From Dermatophagoides farinae (Eukaryota > Arthropoda > Arachnida > Sarcoptiformes > Pyroglyphidae): a stretch of DNA of 64,000 bases. Every line of letters begins with the position of its first letter. The stretch's first letter is position 1. Below, in pieces: positions 8,190 through 52,834 of this stretch. The notes under the pieces were generated by a model. It did no database searches and was not told the origin of the DNA. It was given only the letters and a program-made list of their open reading frames with translations. The stretch is taken from positions 2,981,001 through 3,045,000 of the forward strand of contig NC_134679.1 of assembly GCF_024713945.1 (NCBI RefSeq), read 5' to 3'. Both the position numbers and the translations under genes were made by a program.

Positions 8190-9855
8190 TCATAAATTTT
8201 GACTACCTCTTCGTCGAAGTAGACAATGTAAAGCAACTTGTTTTTGATTCATTCCAGAAATTGAATCAGTTATATCCGGATAAGGAATTACATTTTTAGG
8301 AAGAATTATCTCTTCTTGTGAATTCATATGTTCAAGTTTCTCTTGTTTTCGTAGTCGTTTCAAAAGTATTTTTTTCATCAACGGTTTAGATACTTTGAGA
8401 TATTTCAATAAAATTTCGGTGATAAATATCATTATCGTTATCGCTATACAACATATGTAGAGTATGAAACATTCGGCAACATTTTTCATATGCAAAATCT
8501 GGTTACTTTCTTTGGCTCCAGTGAATCCAACATTATGATCGTGTTCCAATTGATTCAACATTGTATCAATTGGATTTTCAGAAAATGGTAATTTATAGTT
8601 TTTTCGATGCCATTTTGCAAAAAAACCATGTGCTTGAGCTATACGTATGCATTCGTTAAAAAAAGACGTTAAAGTGGAATTGTTGGAAAACAATAGTCCA
8701 TAACGATCTGTCAATATGCTCGAAGCGATTGTATCAGCATAATTAAAATGTTCATTACCAAAACGATTGGCTAACATATCAAGTGTATCAAACGAACCTA
8801 AAATGGCATAAATTTTTGTTGGCTTAAATCTTCGTTGCAATCGCGATTCAACCATACGATATATACCATCCATGGAATTGGATATTATTTCCATATTTTG
8901 TGACAATATATCATAGATTTCATTCTCTTTTCGATGTTCCATAAAAAATGATCGTAAAGTGGTGCCTTTGACCACTAATGGAACAACGGATTCTTCCATT
9001 ATTTTGTCACAGAATTCATTTAAAGTTGCGATATTCCGTTTTGATTGTAGATTTGTTAATGAGGATATGATTTCATTTGAATAAAAAACCATCATAAATA
9101 GACCAGTGTACCAAGAGATTTGAATGAGAAAATTTGAACCATAACCATTAGGTAGATGACGAGTACCGCGTTGGAGAAATGCCGATAACACTAACCATGT
9201 AAAACTCCATTTGGATTTTGTGAGATGTGTGCAAAGAAAACCAATCAACATCATTGATAACAATATGACACCTATAGATAACCAAACATTTGGATCGAAT
9301 GGACGGAAAATAACACCTTTGACATTGATTGGCTCAGAATCCAAAGTCATGTATGTAATTCTAGATGTTTTGACTTCATCCGACATTCGTACAAATGGAT
9401 TATCATGAGCCATACGAACAGATATACCACCCATAGCAAAACGCGTTTCACCTGATATGACCGACTTCATCAAACCGGTATAGTTCAAATCTGACACTTC
9501 ATGATAACCATAATCGCCATTATGATCGATGAGTTTGTAAGTAAAATTGAAATATTCAGCCATGAACAATAGGAATCGATATGACATTCCGTCTGTCGGT
9601 TCCAATGTCAAATCATTGTTTACATTTCCAAACATCCATGGTGGATTCTGTGAAAAATAATTCAAAAAAATTATAAATCAAATTAACTCTATTTCTACTG
9701 GAAATTTTATATAAAATATATAAAAAATCGATTATCACAAATTTAACTCAAAATGGGTAATTTGACCTCTTGCTGAAGAAATAGTGTTAAAAATATTTAC
9801 TTACAATATTAGTTGCAATTGATATGAGATTGCCATGAAAATTCAAACGTTTCAT
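8190..9855 (-). CDS. Ionotropic receptor (iGluR-like chemosensory channel) 1
   Basis: Two exons, 9855-9805 and 9647-8190, are joined by a 157-bp GT-AG intron in phase 0, giving about 502 residues. The order is that of an ionotropic receptor: S1 half of a ligand-binding domain (PPWMFGN, a TGLMKSVISGE segment, GGISV), first membrane helix (VWLSIGVILLSMMLIGF), pore region with LQRGTRHLP, second helix (SWYTGLFMMVFYSNEIISSLT), S2 half (AILGSFDTLDMLANRFG, SILTDRYGLLF, ECIRIAQAHGFFAKW), and a last helix (FILYICCIAITIMIFITEIL) followed by a basic cytoplasmic tail. No amino-terminal domain or signal peptide is seen; the first 17 codons begin MKRLNFHGNL and the frame is still open upstream, so an extra 5' exon is possible. 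The likely role is a subunit of a ligand-gated cation channel in sensory neurons (family knowledge). Ligand unknown. Confidence 0.85.
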
Positions 9856-10487
9856 GATTAACAATTTAAATAAAGAAAAACAAAGTCATATCCATCCACG
9901 ATAGAATTCGTAAATGGAATGATTGAATGAATGTTTGCGATAACAAAATTCTTGGGAATTTATTGTTCATTCGAGTTATACTTCTTATTCAATTCCGAAT
10001 ACATTAATTATACAATAATTACACCAATCGCTGTTACTGACCAATATTAAGCCTTGATTCTCGTTTTGCAGACAAATAGTTCAATTGGTTTGACTATTCC
10101 GTCATCGAATCGTTACAGTATAATTAATTTGCTTCAATGTCCTTCACAAATGACAACAATCAACATACCAGTACACCATATTACTAACATGACTTTTATA
10201 TTTGACGTGAGTTGTTCTAATCGATAAATATGTTTGGGAAAATTGTGAATAAAAGCAATATCTAAATGATGAATAATGAAAACATTTCCGATTTTCCCAT
10301 ATTTTCTTTATTGACAATATTGACAAATGAAAAAAATTTTCTCATTTTTCATTGTTTTTTTACGTAATTATTTACATATCATAGTTTGCATAACAACCAA
10401 TGAAATTAATAATTAATACGTACCGAAAATTGAGATCGAAGTGTAATGAAAAAAATCATTGACATTTTCGTTTTAGTGCAGATCGTT
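9856..10487. other. Intergenic spacer between receptor genes 1 and 2
   Basis: This holds the presumed promoter and 5' UTR of receptor 1 and the 3' UTR of receptor 2. No coding segment is supported. One 60-codon minus-strand frame (10144-10326) shows no receptor motif and no splice link. Confidence 0.6.
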
Positions 10488-12094
10488 TCATCTGGAAATG
10501 TTTTTATGAACTATAGTAGTGTCATCTTTGGAAAAACTTTCCAACATTAATATTCGAATTAGGATTTCTGTTGATGTTGATATACGTTGTTGATTGAAAA
10601 ATCTAATGGATTTTATCAATTTTTGAAGACGTGGTTTTATTTTACATGCAATGTAGATAATTTCAACAAAAAAAATTATCGTATTAAACTTTAAACATAT
10701 CAAATAAGTTGAGAATACTTCCTTAACATTTTCAAGCATCAATGTTTTTCCCATTTGTCGTTTCGTCAAAGCAAAAAGTTCATTTTCCAATTCTTGTTTT
10801 AAAGGTATTAATTGTTCTAAACCAACAACAGCGTATGGTGGCCATTTATATTTTTTTATTATCCATTTATGGAAAAAACCACATTCTCTAGCGATTCTTA
10901 TACATTGATTGAAATATATTATAAATGAATAATTGGCTCGAAATAACATCCCATAAGGTTCACTGATGATTGTCGATTGATCCAAATCATAAGCAGAAAA
11001 TAATTGTTCGTTCAAAGTTCGTGTCCATAAATCCAGATAAACATCAGCCCCAATAGTCGCATACACAGGTTGCTGTGCTTTTTTATTCAAACGAGTTTCA
11101 AACATCAACCGAAAAGCTTCAAGATAAGAAGGCGTCAATACCATATGAATTGATAGAATTTCGAAAACTTCAGATTGAGTTTGGCGATTCTTAACAAACC
11201 ATTTCCTGTTTATTATCATTGTTTTTTAACATCAAAGTACTTACTTACCTCAAAATAATAGTTGAATGTTCCACTATCTCCCATGATTGGTTCTGCTAAA
11301 CTATCATTAATCAAGCGAATGAAATCATTTACACCATTGATTTCTTCAAAACGAATATCATCAGTGAGCGATGAAATAATAATCGATCCATATGAAGCAA
11401 TAAGAATGAAACCAAACCACCAACATAATTGAATCAATAAGTTCATAGCATTACTTTGAAATATTGAATATTTGCCACGTTGAAGCAATGAGCTAAACAT
11501 TAACCAATAGATATCGCTTCCAGAAGGAATAATTTTTTCGAATATTGACCCAGCTGCTAGCAATATGATCATGGTCAATGTGAAATATATCCAAACTTGT
11601 AAATCGAACGGTGTAAATAATGTACGATAAACATCTTCAGGTTTCGGTAACAATGTTATATACTTCAGTCGAGTTATATCAATCATTTCGGATGCTTTTA
11701 CCAAAGGATTAATGAGTGGATAATTGAGTGGCAATATGCCTAAAGCGAAATCACTATCACCTTTCAATAATGACCCAATAAGGCCTGTATAGTTTCCATT
11801 GAGATCCTTATTCAATTCTAATTTCAAATCATGTTGTAATTCATAGGTAAAATTAAAATAATTAGCCATAAATAAAAGAAATTGATATGATGAACCATCA
11901 AATGCAACAAATTCTGGTTTATAATTTCCAATGAACCATGGTGCAATCTATGAATAGAATAGAATAAGAAAGAATATTTATGATAAAATTATCCATGACG
12001 CAATACAAACCGTTGTAGCAGCTACTCTCATCAAACTACCATTTAAATTTGGTCTAAACAAGACGTTCTCTTCCAAATTTAACACGAGATCCAT
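10488..12094 (-). CDS. Ionotropic receptor (iGluR-like chemosensory channel) 2
   Basis: Three exons fit: 12094-12011, 11947-11249 and 11189-10488, with introns of 63 and 59 bp, all phase 0, giving about 494 residues. Exon 1 encodes MDLVLNLEEN...NLNGSLMRVAATT, with an in-frame TGA just upstream, so the ATG at 12094 is the start unless another exon splices in. S1 contains IAPWFIGN and YTGLIGSLLKGD. A first helix (VWIYFTLTMIILLAAG), an LQRGKYSIF pore-side segment and a second helix (WWFGFILIASYGSIIISSLT) follow. S2 has IGADVYLDLW, YGMLFRANYSF and CIRIARECGFFHKW. The last helix is near VFSTYLICLKFNTIIFFVEIIY. The second intron ends at a weak acceptor (TTGTTAAG), chosen because it restores the frame and aligns with FFMEHRKENEIYDIL of receptor 1. 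The nearby ACAG acceptor would give a stop after four codons. Confidence 0.8.
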
Positions 12095-12512
12095 TTGATA
12101 TGAAAACGAAAGTCAAAATAAAAACAGTAATCATCAATCGGCTCAAAATTGGTATTCCAAAAATCCATCACTTATTTGTTGGAAGGAAAAAAATTTTGCC
12201 GAAAATATGTAAAAAAGTTTGATGAATTCGAGATATCGATTGGAAAATAAACATGATTAATTTACATTGGAAAACATTGTTTTTTAGCGACAGTTTTGTA
12301 ATGTAATTGTTCATTTCAGAAATTGATTCCATCTCGTTGCTTCGTTGCTACCAACAATTGAATAGAATCATAACAAAGATTAAACCGTAAAATGTGTTCA
12401 AATGGAATCAAATATTGATCGATAAGAACATGATGATGAAAATATCAAACTAATCTACATATGAAACAAACAAACCATAAGATTCAATTCATAGTTGATC
12501 AATAAAGCAAAT
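12095..12512. other. Intergenic spacer between receptor genes 2 and 3
   Basis: About 420 bp with no supported gene. It should carry the 5' flank of receptor 2 and the 3' UTR of receptor 3. Confidence 0.6.
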
Positions 12513-13906
12513 TTATTTTGAAACTTTTATTATTCTCCAAATAATTTCACTGATGAATACAAGAAAAAATGATGATAAACATATAAAATAGGTATCGAAC
12601 AAGTAATGTGTAACATTTAACGTCAATTTGGTTGATTGATTACTCGATGCATTGTCTAATTTCCTATTTTGATTCAAACGTGATAACATTGATTCTAATT
12701 CAGGAAATTTTTTCGTCCATACTGGTTTGTCATAAACAAACCATTTGACAAAAAAACCACATTCGCGTGCGATCTTAATGCATTGATTAAAATATGGAAT
12801 CATTGTGGAATTTGCTCGAAACAGTAGACCATAATAATCGGTAAAAAAAGCTGTATCTATATCATCTTTATAAACAAAGTATTGTGAACCCAAACGATTG
12901 GCAAACATGTTCAGATATTTAAATGTCCCAATGACCGAATAGAATGACGGGTTTCTTACTGGTGAAAAATTTCCAAATTCAATATCGTGTTGATGTTTGA
13001 TCATTTGATAAATGGCATCTTCATGAGAATCAGCTTTTTTCATATTTTTACATAAAATTTTATAAATTTTGTCGGCCTTCTTATATTTTTCAAATATATC
13101 AAAATAGGGAGATTTTTCACTCATTACCGGTATCAGCTTCTGTTGAGCAGCCATAGCAGAAAATTGTTGCACATCTGATATGACATTATAACTTTCGATA
13201 TCGGTTAATCTAGAAATTATTATCAAACTGTAAGCCTGATAAAAGAATAAACCGGTCCAACAGCAAATTTGAATTAAAAAATTAATGCCAAACCAATTGA
13301 TAGTTGGATATTTGAAGGATTGATGAAGAAATGCTTGAAATACAAACCAAGGAAAATTGACTTGAATTTTTATCAATTTACGTAGTATGATTGCTAATAT
13401 TATTGTAAATACACAGGAAAAAGCCATTAATGAACCAGCAATTGGATCGAATGGAGAAAAAATTACACCAGAATCAATTTTTGATCCAGATTTCAACGTT
13501 AAATAAGTGATACGAGAAATTTGAATAAAATCGGATGAAGCAGTTAAATTGTTAAACAATGGAATCGAATTTGAAACACCTCCCATTGCAAAATGGGTCC
13601 GACCCGATAAGATGGAACCGACTAGACCGGTAAAATTATGGTCAGAAAATCGTTTTAAGCCCCAATCACCATCTTGATCGATGAGTTCCCATTTAAAATT
13701 CAAGTATTCGGCCAGGAACAGAAGAAATGGATATGACAAACCATCATAAGGCGGATCATCCGGATTTTTTAAAAACCACCATGGCGGCTCCTGAAAATAA
13801 AGAAAAAACAGCAATTTTAATTCAATTTATTCAAATAAGGTAATATAATATTCCCACATTACCAAATTCGATGCTATTCTCAGAAGAGTTCCATTCAAAT
13901 TAATTC

Positions 13907-34784: not shown

Positions 34785-35209
34785 GAACGAGTTGCAATCA
34801 TGAAAATATGAATTCTAACAACAACAACAACAACAACAACAATAATAATTGATAAATATAAAAAAACGCGCGATCTTGATTGCTCGTCTTTTTTTTGTCG
34901 ATTTGAACAATAAATAATTGTGATGAATGAATGATGATGGTGATAATTCTAACTAAAGTAGCCAAAACAATTTAATAATAATAATAATAATGGTAATGAA
35001 AATAATATGACGATTATAAAGGTTTTTTTTATTGAAAAAAAAATTTCATCCTCTTATAGAATTAGTTTGTGTATAGATCATCATCGTGACAATCATCATC
35101 ATTTCTATAATAAAAAAAAAATTGTGGTTGACCGCGAAAATTGAATGAAAAAAAAAATGTCATCCCTGTTTTGTCTTCATGAGAATTGAATTGTTATAAA
35201 CAAACAAAC
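34785..35209. repeat. Left copy of a ~425-bp direct repeat flanking the insertion
   Basis: The stretch beginning GAACGAGTTGCAATCATG and ending ATAAACAAACAAAC recurs at 38481-38904 in the same orientation. The copies differ mainly in microsatellite lengths (the CAA/AAT array and the CAT run) and a few substitutions. They bracket 35210-38480 exactly. The content is ordinary host-like AT-rich DNA, not an LTR. Confidence 0.95.
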
Positions 35210-35374
35210 TGTTGAATAATTGAACACAGCACAATTGGGTAAACAATGAACAGAGTAAAATGACTGAAACAACAACGACTTGACTTATTTTAATTCTAAA
35301 CTCAAACTCATATACACCACCAACAATCAATAATTACATTAAACATTTTCTATTCAACAATCATATTTACAACA
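35210..35374 (-). mobile_element. Ty1/copia 3' LTR (165 bp)
   Basis: On the minus strand it begins TGTTGTAAATATG and ends CAATTATTCAACA, the TGTTG...CAACA ends typical of copia LTRs. A polypurine tract lies directly upstream of it. Only this LTR is present; no second copy is seen at the other end of the insert. Its outer end abuts the left host repeat. Confidence 0.8.
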
Positions 35375-35383
35375 CTCCCCCTG
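35375..35383 (-). other. Polypurine tract of the copia element
   Basis: Minus-strand CAGGGGGAG sits immediately before the LTR start TGTTG, the expected priming position for plus-strand synthesis. Confidence 0.75.
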
Positions 35384-35409
35384 TTGAATAGAAAAGATAA
35401 ATGACAAAA

Positions 35410-36363
35410 TCATTTGATAAATTCGACGTCCATTTTCTTTTTCCATTTATTTCTGTTCTCTGGATTATCTGCTATCTTGAATGCACCAGCTGCTAGACAG
35501 AAAGAACGCAACACTTCCAAACGTTTTTCACATGCTGTATAATTTAGGTTTCCCGACTTGAGCGGTACATCCGGTTTTGTTGATGTTGATGCAGTTTCAC
35601 AACCATTGTCTTCACTACTTAGATTTTCACCATCTTCATTTGATTTTTCATCTATATTGATAATTGCGCCTTTATTCGTTTCTTTTCCAATATTCTTCGA
35701 ATGACATTTCGATGTTTCGTCAAACACAACTGATGATGACAATTTAATACAATGACGTTTTGGACAATACACTCGATATATATTTGACCCGTTATATCCG
35801 ACCATAAAAACAGATTCGGACTTCGATGAAAATTTGTCACCATGCTTAGAGATCCAGCTCTCTCCTTGAAACACATGAAGATTTGAAACATCAACAGATT
35901 TACCGTATGGCACAATATTCTTTGAGTTTAAATTACGATTCACCGCATAAACAACATGATTTAGAGCTTCGTCCCATAAATACTGAGGTAAACCACTATT
36001 GTTGAGAATCGCCACTGCACGTTCAGAAATTGTTCGAATGAATCGTTCGGCTTTTCCATTATACTGAGGAACACCAACCACACCTAATTCATGTATAATT
36101 CCACGATCACGGAAATATGATTGAACATTCTTCGATGTGAATTCAGATCCATTGTCCGAACGAACAACCAACACGTCTTTTCCAGTATCAACTTTGATTT
36201 CATTGACAAACAACTTCAGCTTATCAAGAACTTCACTTCTAGTTTTCATGAAGCCAATTTTCATATACAAGATGATGAATCATCAACAGCCAGTAGATAA
36301 TATTGATTGCCATGAATCGAAGGTTTTGGTGAAAATAGTAAGGAGTGACGACATCAATGAATG
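35410..36363 (-). pseudogene. Ty1/copia integrase fragment, frameshifted and truncated
   Basis: The 286-codon minus frame (36270-35410) carries the last part of a copia integrase core. RSDNGSEFTSKNV supplies the second catalytic Asp, and 35 residues later PQYNGKAERFIRTISERAV supplies the Glu (D-x35-E), followed by SGLPQYLWDEALN. It then runs into the linker that normally leads to reverse transcriptase and stops at 35410, next to the polypurine tract, so reverse transcriptase and RNase H are absent. Just upstream the same domain continues in another frame (YYLLAVDDSS, about 36310-36270), so a one-base shift separates the pieces. Family resemblance is lost by about 36360. The element cannot make a functional product. 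Confidence 0.85.
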
Positions 36364-36769
36364 GACCCCGTGAGAGGGCGATCGAGATAATGAAAAAAGC
36401 AGCGTGGTGTGATCACAGAGCCGCAGTTGGTTTTTTGAGCAGAGACGACGAGGAAGAAACAGAAAGACGACGACCGACGATCAGACGAACATTGATTTTT
36501 TTATTATATTCATTTTTGTTAATATCGACCCCACATTTCATGTTATTTTAATTTCATGTGTCTTCAAATTTTCGAATTGAATAAAACTTAAACTATTTGT
36601 ATCAGTTTCATGTAACCTCCAATGTCAACATACAATTTCATTCCAGGAGCAATATTTTCATTGACAGAAGCAACTGGTTTGTGACTAACATCCGTCATTA
36701 TTTCTTTTTTAAAAAATTGATTTTTGGTTATTGCTTATTGCTTTTAGTTCATTTTGATTATGCACTTTA
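36364..36769. other. Unassigned junction segment between copia fragment and virus-like ORF
   Basis: About 400 bp resembling neither the copia pol above nor the host repeat. It includes a relatively GC-rich part (36365-36490) and an AATAAA near 36580. On the minus strand there is a 35-codon frame starting ATGACGGATGTTAGTC at about 36697. Its origin is unknown. It may be non-coding or antisense viral sequence, or part of another retroelement, joined during formation of the insert. Confidence 0.4.
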
Positions 36770-38374
36770 ATGTCTAGTGACGATAAAAATTTTCAACGTC
36801 CATACGCTACAAGATCAACAGGTCCTGCTCCGAATCCGATAATACACGAACAAAAACAAAGACAAAAGAAATCGAAGAAAAAAGTTGAAGTTCCATTGAT
36901 AACATTCTCCGGAGACGAAATGGCTAATAACGACACAGAAAATACTACCCCAGTGGTCAGTCAACACATTACATTGCGTTCACCGTCATCGATTTCTCTA
37001 CCAAAAGATGAAACTGTTCCTATCGATCATGTTATGGCTGATAAACAAGTTGGGAACGTAGAAGTTTTCAACAATCAGGGTTTTGCAACTTATAGTGAAA
37101 CTATCCCGTTTGCTAAGGCTGATTGTATTGATTCTACTGATGTGTTCACCAATTTGGTACGTGGAAAATTGGCTTTGCCTTTCCCGGCGTTCCCCGTCGA
37201 CACTACGCGAACCAACATGAATAATCACGAATTTTATATATGGTTCTGTCAAGCTTCTGGTATGGGTTACATCCTGGATCGTTTAACCTTATCTGCCGAA
37301 AAAGTTTCATCCGAAAATGCTATGAGATATGGCATTGGTACCTTGGTTACTTACAAAGTTAGTGGAGTAACTGTGTATCCAATGTCCGTGATTGACAAAG
37401 TTACATATGCTGTTTTGAAGGCAGCATATCCTGCATCAGTAATGACAGAAAACTTGTGGACATCACATAATAAGAGTCAAAAATTCTCTTATTTAGGTAC
37501 TATCTTCAATTATACCTTTATGACACGAACTTCAATGACTGTTAGTCAGTTGATTTCTTATTCATATGCAAAATTCTGCTTTGCCATGATCGGCAAGGAG
37601 CCATCAACATCCACTTGCAATTTGATCAAAGCCCTTACTGGTGCTAAGGCTGAATTCTATTTTACGCCTGTTGAAATTAATGTATGGGATGATATGACTT
37701 GCATCTCTACCGAAAAGAAACAAGAGCTATTGAAGTCCATGTTTCGAAGACCCAATGATCTAACGGAACTCTTGGAGATCCTGTATAATCGGTTTAAAAC
37801 ATACGGATTAACATCAATGGTGACAATAACCGAAGCAATCGACAAGTTTCCCACTTTTCCATGGCAATCAATCGCTTCCGAGTGGTATCACTACGAAATG
37901 GAAAAATACATGGCAGCCGCGGACGCTGTTACTGCTCTCGAGTTTCCTGCATTGCATAAAGATGTATTGACATCGCATTCTGTCATGGGGTATCGGAACT
38001 TAGCCTGTTTTTGCGCAAAAGTGCTCGAATTCAGTGGTGTGAACAATACCCTCCGCAATCATGAAGGGCTGAAACGCGTTAGATTGCCCGATGATCGTGT
38101 CCAATATATAAAAGGACTTGTGGCATCTCCCATCGTATCCCGAACTCAGGGCTTTTCTCAATCAACATACGATCGTTTGAAGAAGTATTCAATGAAATTG
38201 TGTGGGACCAACTTTGATCCAAATATTGCTGCCACTCGCCAGGCCGCCATAGAAGCAAAAGCCCGTGAGCGTGATGAATTAGAAAAAGCACGAATGCAGC
38301 AAATGTTCCAACAATTCCAGCATCAAGCAGGATCGAGTGCCACTGAACCATCCACTTCACGTGCACAAGGTTAA
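36770..38374 (+). CDS. Intact intronless 534-codon ORF, candidate endogenised RNA-virus nucleoprotein
   Basis: A single uninterrupted frame from ATG 36770 to TAA, with higher GC and more even codon use than the host genes around it, no introns and no microsatellites. The first ~70 residues are polar and basic (KQRQKKSKKK near residue 30). The middle is a mostly helical-looking globular part with an SMVTITEAIDKFPTFPW region about two thirds along and a GYRNLACFCAKVLEF segment after it. The last ~50 residues are a charged, Gln-rich tail. There is no zinc knuckle, protease or polymerase motif, so it is not a normal gag-pol. The layout resembles nucleoproteins of negative-strand RNA viruses; a chuvirus-like source is my first guess, from general resemblance only. 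Alternatives are a domesticated retroelement gag or an unknown gene. Being wedged against a copia fragment fits capture of viral RNA by retroelement reverse transcriptase. The intact frame implies recent arrival or selection. Confidence 0.55.
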   Translation: MSSDDKNFQRPYATRSTGPAPNPIIHEQKQRQKKSKKKVEVPLITFSGDEMANNDTENTTPVVSQHITLRSPSSISLPKDETVPIDHVMADKQVGNVEVFNNQGFATYSETIPFAKADCIDSTDVFTNLVRGKLALPFPAFPVDTTRTNMNNHEFYIWFCQASGMGYILDRLTLSAEKVSSENAMRYGIGTLVTYKVSGVTVYPMSVIDKVTYAVLKAAYPASVMTENLWTSHNKSQKFSYLGTIFNYTFMTRTSMTVSQLISYSYAKFCFAMIGKEPSTSTCNLIKALTGAKAEFYFTPVEINVWDDMTCISTEKKQELLKSMFRRPNDLTELLEILYNRFKTYGLTSMVTITEAIDKFPTFPWQSIASEWYHYEMEKYMAAADAVTALEFPALHKDVLTSHSVMGYRNLACFCAKVLEFSGVNNTLRNHEGLKRVRLPDDRVQYIKGLVASPIVSRTQGFSQSTYDRLKKYSMKLCGTNFDPNIAATRQAAIEAKARERDELEKARMQQMFQQFQHQAGSSATEPSTSRAQG

Positions 38375-38480
38375 ACAACCTTTTTTTTGATTTCTTTTCC
38401 ACATTTTTCATGATACATTTTTACTCCCTTTGAAATTTAATTTTTCTAAAATTTTGACAATGTCAACCGGACTTTCACAC
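38375..38480. other. 3' flank of the virus-like ORF up to the host repeat
   Basis: A T-rich trailer (T8 soon after the stop) ending TCAACCGGACTTTCACAC, after which the second host repeat copy starts. There is no poly-A tail, which argues against simple retrotransposition of a polyadenylated mRNA. Confidence 0.5.
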
Positions 38481-38904
38481 GAACGAGTTGCAATCATGAA
38501 AATATGAATTCTAACAACAATAATAATTAATAATAATAAATATAAAAAAACGCGCGATCTTGATTGCTCGTCTTTTTTTTGTCGATTTGAACAATAAATA
38601 ATTGTGATGAATGATGATGGTGGTGATAATTCTAACTAAAGTAGCTAAAACAATTTAATAATAATAATGGTAATGAAAATAATATGACGATTATAAAGGT
38701 TTTTTTTATTGAAAAAAAAAATTTCATCCTCTTATAGAATTAGTTTGTGTATAGATCATCATCGTGACAATCATCATCATCATCATTTCTATAATAAAAA
38801 AAAATTGTGGTTGACCGCGAAAATTGAATGACAATAAAATTGAATGAAAAAAAATGTCATCCCATTTGTCTTCATGAGAATTGAATTGTTATAAACAAAC
38901 AAAC
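38481..38904. repeat. Right copy of the ~425-bp direct repeat flanking the insertion
   Basis: Same orientation and content as 34785-35209, including the shared AAAAAACGCGCGATCTTGAT and GTGGTTGACCGCGAAAATTG segments. Differences include a shorter CAA/AAT array, a longer CAT run and an extra short ACAATAAAATTGAATG unit. Sequence after ATAAACAAACAAAC is host intron DNA. Confidence 0.95.
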
Positions 38905-49832: not shown

Positions 49833-50057
49833 TGTGAAGAAATAACCAAGACAACTTTCTTAGTTAAATAAACGTAGTTTATTAAATGATTGTATCTTAA
49901 TACAATTCAAAAATCAAATAAAAAACAATAAATACAAAACTTCAAAAGCAAAAACACATGTACAATTTTCTTGCTAATACTGGCTCGCTCACTCTTTTTC
50001 AGTAGAATTTGCGCCAATTGCTTGGCCCGTTCATCGAGGACGACCCACTTCACGACA
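49833..50057 (-). repeat. BEL/Pao 3' LTR (225 bp)
   Basis: Minus-strand TGTCGTGAAG...CTTCACA. It is a direct repeat of 53363-53588 and preceded on the minus strand by a purine tract. The long ORF reads into it and ends at 49907. Confidence 0.93.
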
Positions 50058-52834
50058 CTCCCCCGCCGATTCCAAAAAGGATATGTCCGTAACCGATCGT
50101 AGAAGATTTCAAAGAATTTGAATTTCAATGGCCAATCACAACGTCTACGTTGAATCAATGAATCGAAATACTTTTGCTTCCATAGTTTTTCGATTTTCAT
50201 TAAGAGATCATGATTACAAGAGCCAAGACCGGTGACCAACAAACCAAAAAACTTTTTTCTGTTCCGATATCGCAATAAATCAAAGAAAACAATACATACA
50301 GCTTCAAAAATAGCAACAAAACTTGTTCGGGTTGATTGTAATTGAGTAAATGGTTGATCGACAGGTTTTCGCTTTTCAATTTGACTAAATTTACCATAAT
50401 CAACATATTTCATTTCCATATGATACAAATTAGGAATAGTAGTTTCAATACCATCATGAAATAACATTTCATTATACTGTTTGATCCGGGATTTAGCAAT
50501 AGTTCCAAAATTTTGCTCACACAATAATTTTTTAGTAACCGATGTCAATATCACGGGTGAAGACACTAACCCGAATGTTGAAACTTTCATTTGCAGAAAC
50601 GCCTTTGACAGATCGGCAGATACGGCAAATTTTCCTTTGCGGAATTTCATGAGATGATCAAAAATGTTAAGACCGTGTGCATGGCCTTTCCATAGCAACT
50701 GATTCGAAACATCAAATCCAAACGATCCGTTGAAAACAACACACAACGGTGTGGACGCGGATTCTCGATAAATCGGATGGTACGGCAACAAATAGCCGTT
50801 TGGATCGTCCGTTACCACAGCTTGATCGTTATCAACATAAGCCAATAATTGTTTTTCATATTCGTTTTTCATGCTCTTATTTTCTAATTGTTTGATCAAT
50901 TTATTCGAAACAATAAGAGCCCGATCAAAATCATTGGCTGGGCGAATATCTGAAAGAAAAGGCAATCGTGCCCCATATCGTCCATTCTCTTTTCGTACAA
51001 TCTTAAAATCATCGTCGACATCTTTGACGTCAACGTTCAAATCATTTTCAATTACAAAATTCAATAATTCATGATCAGATTTCAAAAATAATTCGTCATC
51101 CGAAGATTCAATAATTTTATCATTTTCAATAATTGGTTCAATATCAATATCTCCATTATCTTGACGATTCAAAAGATCAATAATTGGTTCATCAATATCT
51201 CCATTATCTTGACGATTCAAAAGATCAATAATTGGTTCATAAATATCACTTTCATTTTCTGACAAATCGATGATTGGTCTGGTACAAATATTTACATTAC
51301 ATAAATTAGCTTTATGTCTTTCCAGCGATACTTTTCGTCGACTTGCTTCTTTTCCTACTAGTGGTGACGACGAATAGACGGTACAATTTTTGTCAGAATC
51401 ATTTGACTTGTCTTTTACCAATTCTTTATCGATCAACGAAACATCCGAACCATAATCAAACAGCATACGACTCTGAATTCCATTACATGACCCATACAAT
51501 AACGGTCGACTTTCTGACTTAGAATTCTTTTTGATCTCAAAACCATTTTTCGATTGATCAACTACTGATATCGCTGCTGCATTACCGATCATTGATTCTT
51601 CCGTGGCTGGACTAGATTCGTCGATCACTTTGGGTTTCGTTTGAAACAATTCAATAATCACTTCATGCATTTCGGTAGCATGAAGACGTGGACATTTATC
51701 ACATTTAAGTTTCGATGACATTTGACAATTTTTACTTAAATGTCCTCTTTTCAAACATCTGAAGCACAATCCTTTTGATTTGATTAGATTGGCTACTGTT
51801 TTGACATCATAATTTTTCAAACATTCAAAATTATTTTGATGAAACTTTTCACAAATATAACAATTAGTCGTGATAGCGGCTGTGCTATTCGATATCATCG
51901 GTGGCTCTTGTTTCTTCAATGGACTATCTTTACGAATCTTATTGTAATCATAACAAAGAGCTTCATCGTATAGCTTATCGATATAGTTGACTAATTGATC
52001 AAAATCTTTTATCTTCGCCAGCATATGACGTTGAGCTTTATAGTAGAATCTGGTGGCTACTGCCTGAATCAAATTGATCGTGTAGAACATTACGTCTGAA
52101 ACCAAATTTTTGATTGCCAAATTGGCGTTTTCTACTATATCTTTTGTCTTTTTCAAATCATGAACATCATTTTCTGATTCGATTCTTGGGATAGATTCTA
52201 GATCTTTCTTGATTTCCAATATCGCCCGTTGGGGATCATCAAATTTGACGCAAACTCTCGACCAGATCTCGGCTAATGATAATCGTTGACCGATCAAATT
52301 TGTCACAAATTTCTCTGGATCCTTTTTCATGGTTTTCAACAACATTGATTTCTTTAAATCCTCTGAAAGCGATGTATTGTTGATCAATAACTTCTCGATC
52401 ATGATTTTATATGCATTCCAAAATGCGAATTTACCATCGAAAGTCGGTAACTGATCCATCTTAACTGGTCGACATCTATTCAATGATGATGTATCCGCAA
52501 AATTGTTAACTATTGAATTGAACGGGGTTGAGGTACGTAGATGATCACCAGAATCGTCCTGAACGTTGGACTGATTTCGAACTACAACAATTCTCATCTT
52601 TTTCAGATGTTCCATGTACAAATCTAATTTCTTGTTGTAGTCGCCCATCTTTTTTAATTCCTCTTCGGGAATTTCTTCTTCTCCGACTAACTCGATCAAT
52701 TTCTGGTTCAATTCATCTAATTCAGAACGTAATAGTTCTGTCCGAGCCATGTCCCAACGTCTTACATGAAGAAGGGATACATTACTTCTGGCCGAAGCCA
52801 ATCGTTGCTTCACATCATCCGGAATTGTCAACAT
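49907..52834 (-). CDS. BEL/Pao gag-pol deletion derivative, 975 codons
   Basis: One uninterrupted frame from ATG 52834. The N-terminal ~130 residues are coiled-coil-like. A BEL gag core follows (LPTFDGKFAFWNAYK near residue 130), then a CCHC zinc knuckle (CFRCLKRGHLSKNC, about 360) and a second Cys/His cluster (CDKCPRLHATEMH). The retropepsin region reads LFDYGSDVSLID, where the catalytic D-T/S-G is DYG, probably inactivating. An acidic stretch contains a 16-residue tandem duplication. The start of reverse transcriptase is present (YLLPYHPIYRE, FAVSADLSKAFLQMKV), but the frame jumps straight to FGLVSSPVILTSV with the intervening part and the catalytic YxDD block missing. Remnants resembling the late pol/integrase C-terminus follow (RRRCDWPLKFKFFE), and translation ends inside the 3' LTR. 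That the deletion kept the frame is notable. A Gag-like particle protein is possible; enzymatic activity is not. Confidence 0.88.
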   Translation of the reverse strand: MLTIPDDVKQRLASARSNVSLLHVRRWDMARTELLRSELDELNQKLIELVGEEEIPEEELKKMGDYNKKLDLYMEHLKKMRIVVVRNQSNVQDDSGDHLRTSTPFNSIVNNFADTSSLNRCRPVKMDQLPTFDGKFAFWNAYKIMIEKLLINNTSLSEDLKKSMLLKTMKKDPEKFVTNLIGQRLSLAEIWSRVCVKFDDPQRAILEIKKDLESIPRIESENDVHDLKKTKDIVENANLAIKNLVSDVMFYTINLIQAVATRFYYKAQRHMLAKIKDFDQLVNYIDKLYDEALCYDYNKIRKDSPLKKQEPPMISNSTAAITTNCYICEKFHQNNFECLKNYDVKTVANLIKSKGLCFRCLKRGHLSKNCQMSSKLKCDKCPRLHATEMHEVIIELFQTKPKVIDESSPATEESMIGNAAAISVVDQSKNGFEIKKNSKSESRPLLYGSCNGIQSRMLFDYGSDVSLIDKELVKDKSNDSDKNCTVYSSSPLVGKEASRRKVSLERHKANLCNVNICTRPIIDLSENESDIYEPIIDLLNRQDNGDIDEPIIDLLNRQDNGDIDIEPIIENDKIIESSDDELFLKSDHELLNFVIENDLNVDVKDVDDDFKIVRKENGRYGARLPFLSDIRPANDFDRALIVSNKLIKQLENKSMKNEYEKQLLAYVDNDQAVVTDDPNGYLLPYHPIYRESASTPLCVVFNGSFGFDVSNQLLWKGHAHGLNIFDHLMKFRKGKFAVSADLSKAFLQMKVSTFGLVSSPVILTSVTKKLLCEQNFGTIAKSRIKQYNEMLFHDGIETTIPNLYHMEMKYVDYGKFSQIEKRKPVDQPFTQLQSTRTSFVAIFEAVCIVFFDLLRYRNRKKFFGLLVTGLGSCNHDLLMKIEKLWKQKYFDSLIQRRRCDWPLKFKFFEIFYDRLRTYPFWNRRGSVVKWVVLDERAKQLAQILLKKSERASISKKIVHVFLLLKFCIYCFLFDF
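50058..50067 (-). other. Polypurine tract of the BEL element
   Basis: Minus-strand GGCGGGGGAG lies directly upstream of the 3' LTR (TGTCGTG), the position of the plus-strand primer. Confidence 0.8.
51145..51240. repeat. 48-bp tandem duplication inside the BEL ORF
   Basis: Two adjacent copies of a 48-bp unit, in frame, duplicate EPIIDLLNRQDNGDID in the acidic linker. The near identity of the copies indicates a recent event. Confidence 0.9.

Follow-up and report, generated by a model that had tools for sequence, protein, structure and literature searches.

The 64,000-nucleotide stretch of the Dermatophagoides farinae genome analysed here, called the window below (C3:2981001-3045000, in a genome of 62.4 Mb and 22 contigs), contains a single inserted block, 35210-38480, in which part of a copia long terminal repeat (LTR) retrotransposon is joined to a foreign, virus-like open reading frame (ORF), and which is flanked by direct copies of host DNA. 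The block is a chimeric derivative of copia, not a normal copy, and it probably represents the integrated complementary DNA (cDNA) of a chimera between copia RNA and a foreign RNA. The assembled sequence shows a chimeric junction, an exact LTR terminus, a single LTR and duplicated DNA at each edge, and it has the foreign gene twice more, in other LTR families. Template switching by reverse transcriptase (RT) appears to be the best reading of the chimera, backed by those two copies, on contigs C1 and C6. These data suggest that jumping elements repeatedly copied foreign RNA into the mite genome.

Read along the plus strand, the order is host copy A, copia LTR, polypurine tract, integrase, LTR-like insert, integrase, foreign segment and host copy B:

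34785..35209, no strand: host DNA copy A, direct duplication (pairwise alignment; found in the genome as copies A and B only)
35210..35374, minus strand: copia 3' LTR, 165 bp; its outer end is the canonical terminus, with zero extra bases against host DNA (related LTRs L029, L030, L031)
35375..35381, minus strand: polypurine tract adjoining the 3' LTR, reading GGGGGAG on the element's strand
35410..36326, minus strand: copia integrase (catalytic part and SH3), with what looks by eye like the beginning of the RT region (Pfam; relatives L021-L023)
36327..36604, no strand: LTR-like insert within the integrase, 278 bp, TG...CA, with GTTT at 36323-36326 and 36605-36608
36605..36699, minus strand: N-terminal side of the copia integrase, ending at the chimeric junction and including GTTT 36605-36608 (comparison with L021-L023)
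36700..38480, plus strand: foreign (virus-like) segment of leader, ORF and trailer (homology to the C6 copy from 36705)
36770..38374, plus strand: intact ORF of 534 codons, open; orphan family with six database relatives
38481..38904, no strand: host DNA copy B, direct duplication (pairwise alignment; genome search)

The edges of the duplication are exact to the base: copy A stops at the LTR start, 35210, and copy B starts after 38480. Copies A (425 bp) and B (424 bp) share 396 identical positions in a 446-column alignment, with 7 substitutions in 403 aligned bases (1.7%) and 10 gap events that fall mostly in short repeats (BLAST: 89%, E 1.7e-162), in agreement with the first-pass annotation, which had placed the same ~425 bp of host DNA on either side. 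The 62.4-Mb genome gave no third copy in a search that skips simple repeats and in which five of the seven matches were to the LTR part of the query. Because both block edges abut the same duplicated host DNA, the copia part and the ORF appear to have entered as one chimeric unit. Normal copia integration duplicates 5 bp of target. Where a Ty1/copia insertion is defined by two LTRs and a target duplication of ~5 bp, the window insertion has one LTR and a 424/425-bp duplication.

The copia part itself has the features of Ty1/copia, namely an LTR with TG...CA ends, a copia integrase and a polypurine tract, which we take 35375-35381 to be from the anatomy of such elements. The LTR termini were the same in three related LTRs, among those listed, where these were covered, which bears out the earlier claim that the block begins exactly at a copia 3' LTR. 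One of these LTRs (L029), itself interrupted, begins at the same base as the window LTR and is bounded by 5-bp GTTAC direct repeats. The minus-strand integrase matched the Pfam family SH3_retrovirus over the cut-off (E 2.4e-13) and rve under the cut-off (E 8e-5). Over 214 amino acids it was 83% identical to one of the copia relatives, and its frame changes near 36268. The polypurine tract and frameshifted integrase described in the first pass were thus both recovered. The stretch that it had left as an unassigned 400 bp is present too, but can now be assigned: it resolves into the 278-bp LTR-like insert, a further 95 bp from the copia integrase, and the leader that precedes the ORF at its 5' side. 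Two relatives of the 278-bp insert lie on contig C4, and their common sequence extends upstream of the insert.

Three copia relatives (L021, L022 and L023) were 92-94% identical to the window over the last 93 bp before 36699, and all three run on past this point in the copia reading frame, whereas the window switches to foreign sequence. A junction absent from relatives was taken as the mark of foreign-gene capture; such a junction was found in the window, against these three relatives, and on the 3' side of the C6 copy. Only a few bases of overlap are present at the chimeric junction (36699/36700). In L022 an RT domain lies between integrase and LTR (C5:5373949-5374656), in place of which the window has 35 bp (35375-35409). 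An RT-less copia copy is present at L021:2841-5610 (C5), where it measures 2770 bp end to end and has 189-bp LTRs that are 100% identical; none of the at least 45 copia RT matches in the genome falls in L021. This copy is apparently a recently moved, non-autonomous copia form. The copia RT profile had at least 45 matches in the 62.4 Mb, 40 of them over the cut-off, and copia elements look recently active in the mite genome because 19 of the 45 sit in long open frames of 1247-1399 amino acids. Elsewhere in the window, a 975-codon ORF on the minus strand (49907-52834) looked by eye like a retroelement gag with cysteine knuckles and had no Pfam match; a motif near its end recurs, also by eye, beside the copia copy in L023.

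The foreign piece is intronless and has host DNA at both sides, which is the structure expected of an endogenous viral element (EVE). As the first pass had noted, it carries an intact, foreign-looking ORF on the strand opposite to the copia part (36770-38374, plus strand, 534 codons, open). A search of the mite's own genome found four copies of this gene, including that of the window, each open over the matched part:

C6 copy: 75% identical to the window ORF over residues 27-531
C1 copy: 69% identical to the window ORF over residues 84-423
C10 copy: 46% identical to the window ORF over residues 94-524

A database of 5.8 billion proteins yielded five relatives among 6388 scored candidates and, with a profile, six among 7285. 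One of the six was named, the D. farinae protein LOC124494102, annotated as an uncharacterised protein, and the other five had no organism label. The C6 copy encodes LOC124494102 letter for letter, and the C1 copy encodes another of the relatives (P0005). At about 1.78 kb, the foreign pieces of the window and of C6 have similar ends, which suggests that a discrete RNA was copied. When the leaders of these two pieces were compared, none of 1000 single-base shuffles reached the alignment score; for the trailers five of 1000 did, a result that is only suggestive because the leader and trailer stretches are T-rich.

On contig C1 the foreign gene lies within a 3676-bp element on the minus strand, with 145-bp LTRs that are 99.3% identical (1 of 145 positions differs) and 4-bp ATAG repeats on both sides. 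The order in this element is gag, protease, RT start, foreign ORF in sense, and integrase C-terminus. The protease and RT matches were over the Pfam cut-offs, the integrase piece matched C-terminal domains of the murine leukaemia virus (MLV) and Tf2-1 types below the cut-offs, and both the gag, which had no Pfam match, and the part of the RT after a frame break were read by eye; on these grounds the element is predicted to be of Ty3 type. The foreign ORF is a passenger, since its frame differs from that of the integrase piece. For lack of a close relative that spans them, the C1 junctions were placed from the domain order.

The C6 copy lies in a second copia family. A copia LTR and gag (Pfam E 9.7e-12) come first, followed by an inverted LTR end and then by the foreign gene, which is in sense and has an A9 tract near its end; last comes RT sequence from the same copia family as the LTR and gag. 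The family is represented by LTR and RT in L059/L061 (overlapping, one locus) and by gag and RT in L048, and the C6 3' junction is absent from both. The LTR-gag piece (L024:2698-3719, C6) ends in a 61-bp inverted copy of its own LTR start, directly before the foreign gene, which is perhaps a self-integration or strand-transfer product. Upstream of the LTR is an RT fragment of a third family, which was not counted in the capture because truncation only a few bases from that point is also seen in its relatives, L047 and L051. The most divergent copy, on C10 (L026:3744-5306), is an intact 520-codon ORF beside an ordinary-looking ORF.

Three of the four gene copies, then, lie in LTR-retrotransposon sequence, in each case of a different family. 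Because LTR elements probably account for little of the genome (45 copia RT matches at an assumed ~5 kb each would make up ~0.3%), this is unlikely to have arisen by chance: at least three of four random landings would fall in LTR elements with a probability of ~1e-4, a rough figure for which an LTR content of 3% was assumed rather than measured, and which would rise with nesting and insertion bias.

The proportion of synonymous differences among the copies (pS) was 0.74-0.84 in all six pairs; five were beyond the correction limit and the sixth had a corrected divergence (dS) of 3.0. The proportion of nonsynonymous differences (pN) was 0.13-0.36. As pS is saturated or nearly so and pN is low, the copies have long diverged under constraint, and because the C1 LTRs are 99.3% identical and the window flanks differ by only 1.7%, this divergence arose outside the present loci. 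Multiplication of an element as the source of the copies was ruled out by the synonymous saturation. A replicating donor outside the genome seems the best account of the divergence, and a hidden, constrained host family would also fit.

These features would be accounted for by the following series of events. In a copia particle, RT would have copied copia RNA from the 3' LTR via the polypurine tract into the integrase, the template being an RT-less copia RNA unless there had been a first jump. Near 36699 it would have switched to one end of a foreign RNA of ~1.78 kb, whose sense is opposite to that of the ORF, and read it through to the far end. First-strand copia cDNA has the LTR at one end and corresponds to the plus strand of the window; a jump onto antisense RNA followed by run-off would therefore give a cDNA with one proper LTR end and one non-LTR end. 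Integrase would then have joined the LTR end to host DNA and repair would have joined the other end 425 bp away, with fill-in duplicating the host DNA between the two joins. The 278-bp LTR-like element would have landed in the integrase later. We infer this order of events, as we do the viral nature of the donor and the polarity of its RNA.

With one normal LTR-host junction, and an aberrant opposite end with a host duplication of hundreds of bp, the window copy resembles in structure a one-bad-end integration. According to a report on avian sarcoma-leukosis virus (ASLV) and HIV-1, when integrase can join one end only, the host joins the other, and host duplications are then the commonest outcome; they usually far exceed 5 bp and can reach hundreds or thousands of bp (PMC5041404). 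The first-pass proposal that the LTR end was joined by integrase-like chemistry and the other end by repair is consistent with this pattern.

The same annotation had also proposed that the captured RNA came from a negative-strand genome. This was not upheld, as the C1 and C6 copies are in sense, and the argument from orientation alone was dropped; RNA of either polarity, double-stranded RNA (dsRNA) or a segment would fit the captures. Given the similar window and C6 ends, one candidate donor that was weighed is a virus with a dsRNA or segmented genome and a ~1.8-kb monocistronic segment.

Host end joining might instead have ligated a linear fragment of copia cDNA to an independent foreign cDNA, and both into a staggered double-strand break, with fill-in of a 425-nt stagger making the duplication, so that neither a template switch nor integrase would be required. 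This would explain the antisense orientation without an antisense RNA, and it would suit the few bases of overlap at 36699/36700 and a duplication so far from the 5 bp normal for copia and seen at L029. However, an unprocessed cDNA end would be expected to bring extra bases, whereas the LTR end is exact and has none, and the C1 gene, which lies inside an LTR-to-LTR element, is not easily given by end joining; repair of this kind is considered rather unlikely. Quite improbable is a nested history, in which copia inserted beside a pre-existing foreign gene, deletions removed the second LTR, and the 425-bp repeats are an older tandem duplication. Nested insertions are present here (the 278-bp insert; C6), but two coincidences would be required for the repeats to stop precisely at the LTR terminus on one side and where the foreign piece ends on the other, and there is no 5-bp target duplication around the window LTR.

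The ORF might also be non-viral and have been picked up by LTR elements, whether it belongs to some other mobile element or to a family of mite genes. No search returned a named viral homologue, one copy is annotated as an uncharacterised protein, and the C10 copy is an intact ORF beside an ordinary-looking one. Against this, the family shows no wide animal spread, with only the six relatives among the 6388 and 7285 scored candidates (five of the six without an organism); its four members are divergent single copies, not a repeated element; and the synonymous divergence is saturated without a conserved locus. A non-viral origin is thus judged unlikely.

Several observations weigh against a template switch onto viral RNA, beginning with the lack of a named viral homologue. 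The orientation in the window is opposite to that in C1 and C6, so that the template would have to be antisense or the joining of another kind. No second occurrence of the last 22 nt of the window foreign piece was found in the genome at up to 2 mismatches, which makes its natural 3' end uncertain. At C6, the inverted LTR end between gag and foreign gene is not accounted for by the template-switch model, and the third-family RT piece lies upstream, its relatives L047 and L051 truncated near the same point. At C10, no retroelement (among ORFs >90 amino acids) and no flanking direct repeats were found in the examined part of 9 kb. All of the evidence is from one assembly. With these points considered, a copia-foreign RNA chimera remains our preferred reading of the block. 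The fuller account is put forward tentatively, with somewhat less than even confidence: that the same ~1.8-kb RNA of an unclassified mite virus lineage was captured at least three times by three LTR families, the window copy being a natural one-LTR chimera made via antisense RNA and one-ended integration.

The source of the foreign RNA was most likely viral. Searches of Pfam and PDB with the ORF and its alignment found no relative (there was one chance PDB match, to an antibody fragment, E 2.5). Viral nucleoproteins had been the suggested target, and a profile search detected no homology: no Pfam nucleoprotein family matched eight members of the alignment at E up to 10, in a search whose HMMER filters drop most matches above 0.1. 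In a viral contig collection searched with the ORF alignment, 62 stretches fitted a pattern and none was confirmed. The name mononegaviral nucleoprotein was accordingly dropped as established, there being no sequence match. Since the six protein relatives include no named virus, and homology to a known exogenous RNA virus is part of the definition of an EVE, the ORF is called virus-like here and is not filed as an EVE member.

Viral polymerases were also sought in the genome. The Mononeg_RNA_pol profile had one match, under the cut-off (L063, C10:1992892-1993233, minus strand, E 2e-4), and none in 14 controls. Two of three frame pieces from L063 and the adjoining frames matched Mononeg_RNA_pol colinearly, each just under the Pfam cut-off (E 1.7e-6 and 4.4e-6), and the third had no match; weak PDB matches of these pieces (E 0.04 and above) were to L polymerases in nine of nine rows. 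Part of L063 is covered by DERF_008594, a hypothetical protein of D. farinae (27% of the piece, at 98% identity), and the polymerase piece had no match in the viral contig collection. L063 is thus a putative fragment of a Mononegavirales-like L polymerase, independent of the ORF, and nothing links the two. Bunya_RdRp and Mononeg_mRNAcap had no match in the genome and were also silent in all 14 controls. RdRP_1 had six matches, two of them over the cut-off, and matched one of the 14 controls. Because all six lie at profile positions 302-403, five of the six are in open frames of >900 amino acids, and one overlaps the Ty3 match at L041, these matches were read, from the profile matches alone, as retroelement RT, and were dropped as viral.

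All four copies are open over the matched part, as would be expected if the ORF were a domesticated, functional host gene. In a simulation with substitutions only, however, the window ORF stayed free of stops without selection with a probability of 0.57-0.32 at 0.9-1.7% substitution, a range that includes the divergence of the flanking copies, and the argument that the ORF is intact and so selected was dropped. The window ORF and its near relative P0003 differ at 8 of 311 residues. Judged against six other rows, which include two near-duplicate pairs, the window copy was the odd one at four of these, P0003 at two, and two were ambiguous, a pattern that hints at lost constraint at the window copy and speaks weakly against domestication. 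A domesticated gene is regarded as very improbable, and the window copy is read as an unconstrained fossil. A role in silencing is possible for it, because dust mites lack the PIWI-interacting RNA (piRNA) pathway and have loci producing small interfering RNAs (siRNAs) that control transposons (PMC5805368).

Capture of RNA-virus genes by LTR retroelements, which the first pass had cited as known, is documented in three reports. In the case of eBxnv-1, a nodavirus-like RNA-dependent RNA polymerase (RdRp) lies in a Bel/Pao LTR element of Bursaphelenchus xylophilus (PMC5177903). As in the mite, a non-retroviral RNA-virus gene is found in an LTR retrotransposon, and copy-choice in reverse transcription was proposed there; however, eBxnv-1 is a single copy from a recognisable virus family, whereas the mite has four copies of an orphan gene, three of them in different LTR families, and a one-LTR product with a 425-bp duplication. 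Aedes Aag2 cells contain an EVE that joins cell fusing agent virus (CFAV) to Ty3/gypsy, together with virus-retrotransposon hybrid circular DNA (PMC6797480). There, viral sequence is flanked by LTR and Ty3 gag, and more than 200 hybrids of Sindbis virus and LTR elements were described, but the viruses are positive-strand and the mosquito uses piRNAs (PMC6797480), which dust mites do not (PMC5805368). The chuvirus glycoprotein gene of 'Anakin', in Pao elements, is likewise an RNA-virus gene carried within LTR retroelements (PMC7642597). Its copies were attributed to a single capture, or a few, with later spread, whereas the mite copies look like separate, divergent captures, and at C1 the integrase piece after the foreign gene is in another frame. 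The ASLV and HIV-1 products share with the window copy one normal LTR-host junction, a host-joined other end and long host duplications, but they come from experimental retroviruses, whereas the mite block is a natural retrotransposon-foreign RNA chimera without any second LTR (PMC5041404). Among the papers listed by a literature search that covered few subscription papers, none described this gene, captures in dust mites, or a natural one-LTR chimera whose duplication runs to hundreds of bp. LTR capture of RNA-virus genes is known, then, and what is new is the repeated capture and the one-LTR, long-duplication product.

Away from the block, Rfam and tRNA scans of the window gave no match. A row of ORFs on its minus strand (8190-13814), one of which matched ligand-gated ion channel domains just under the cut-offs and whose neighbours looked alike by eye, is perhaps a small ionotropic-receptor-like cluster.

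The entry into animal germ lines of RNA viruses that have no reverse transcriptase has mostly been argued from old, worn loci. In the D. farinae genome, which is small, with apparently recently active copia and no piRNA pathway, junctions can be read alongside a young capture between two LTRs and another that has a single LTR and left a long host duplication. The route of copy-choice followed by one-ended integration would thereby become testable by comparison of mite strains, and the captured gene may point to an unclassified virus lineage of house dust mites.

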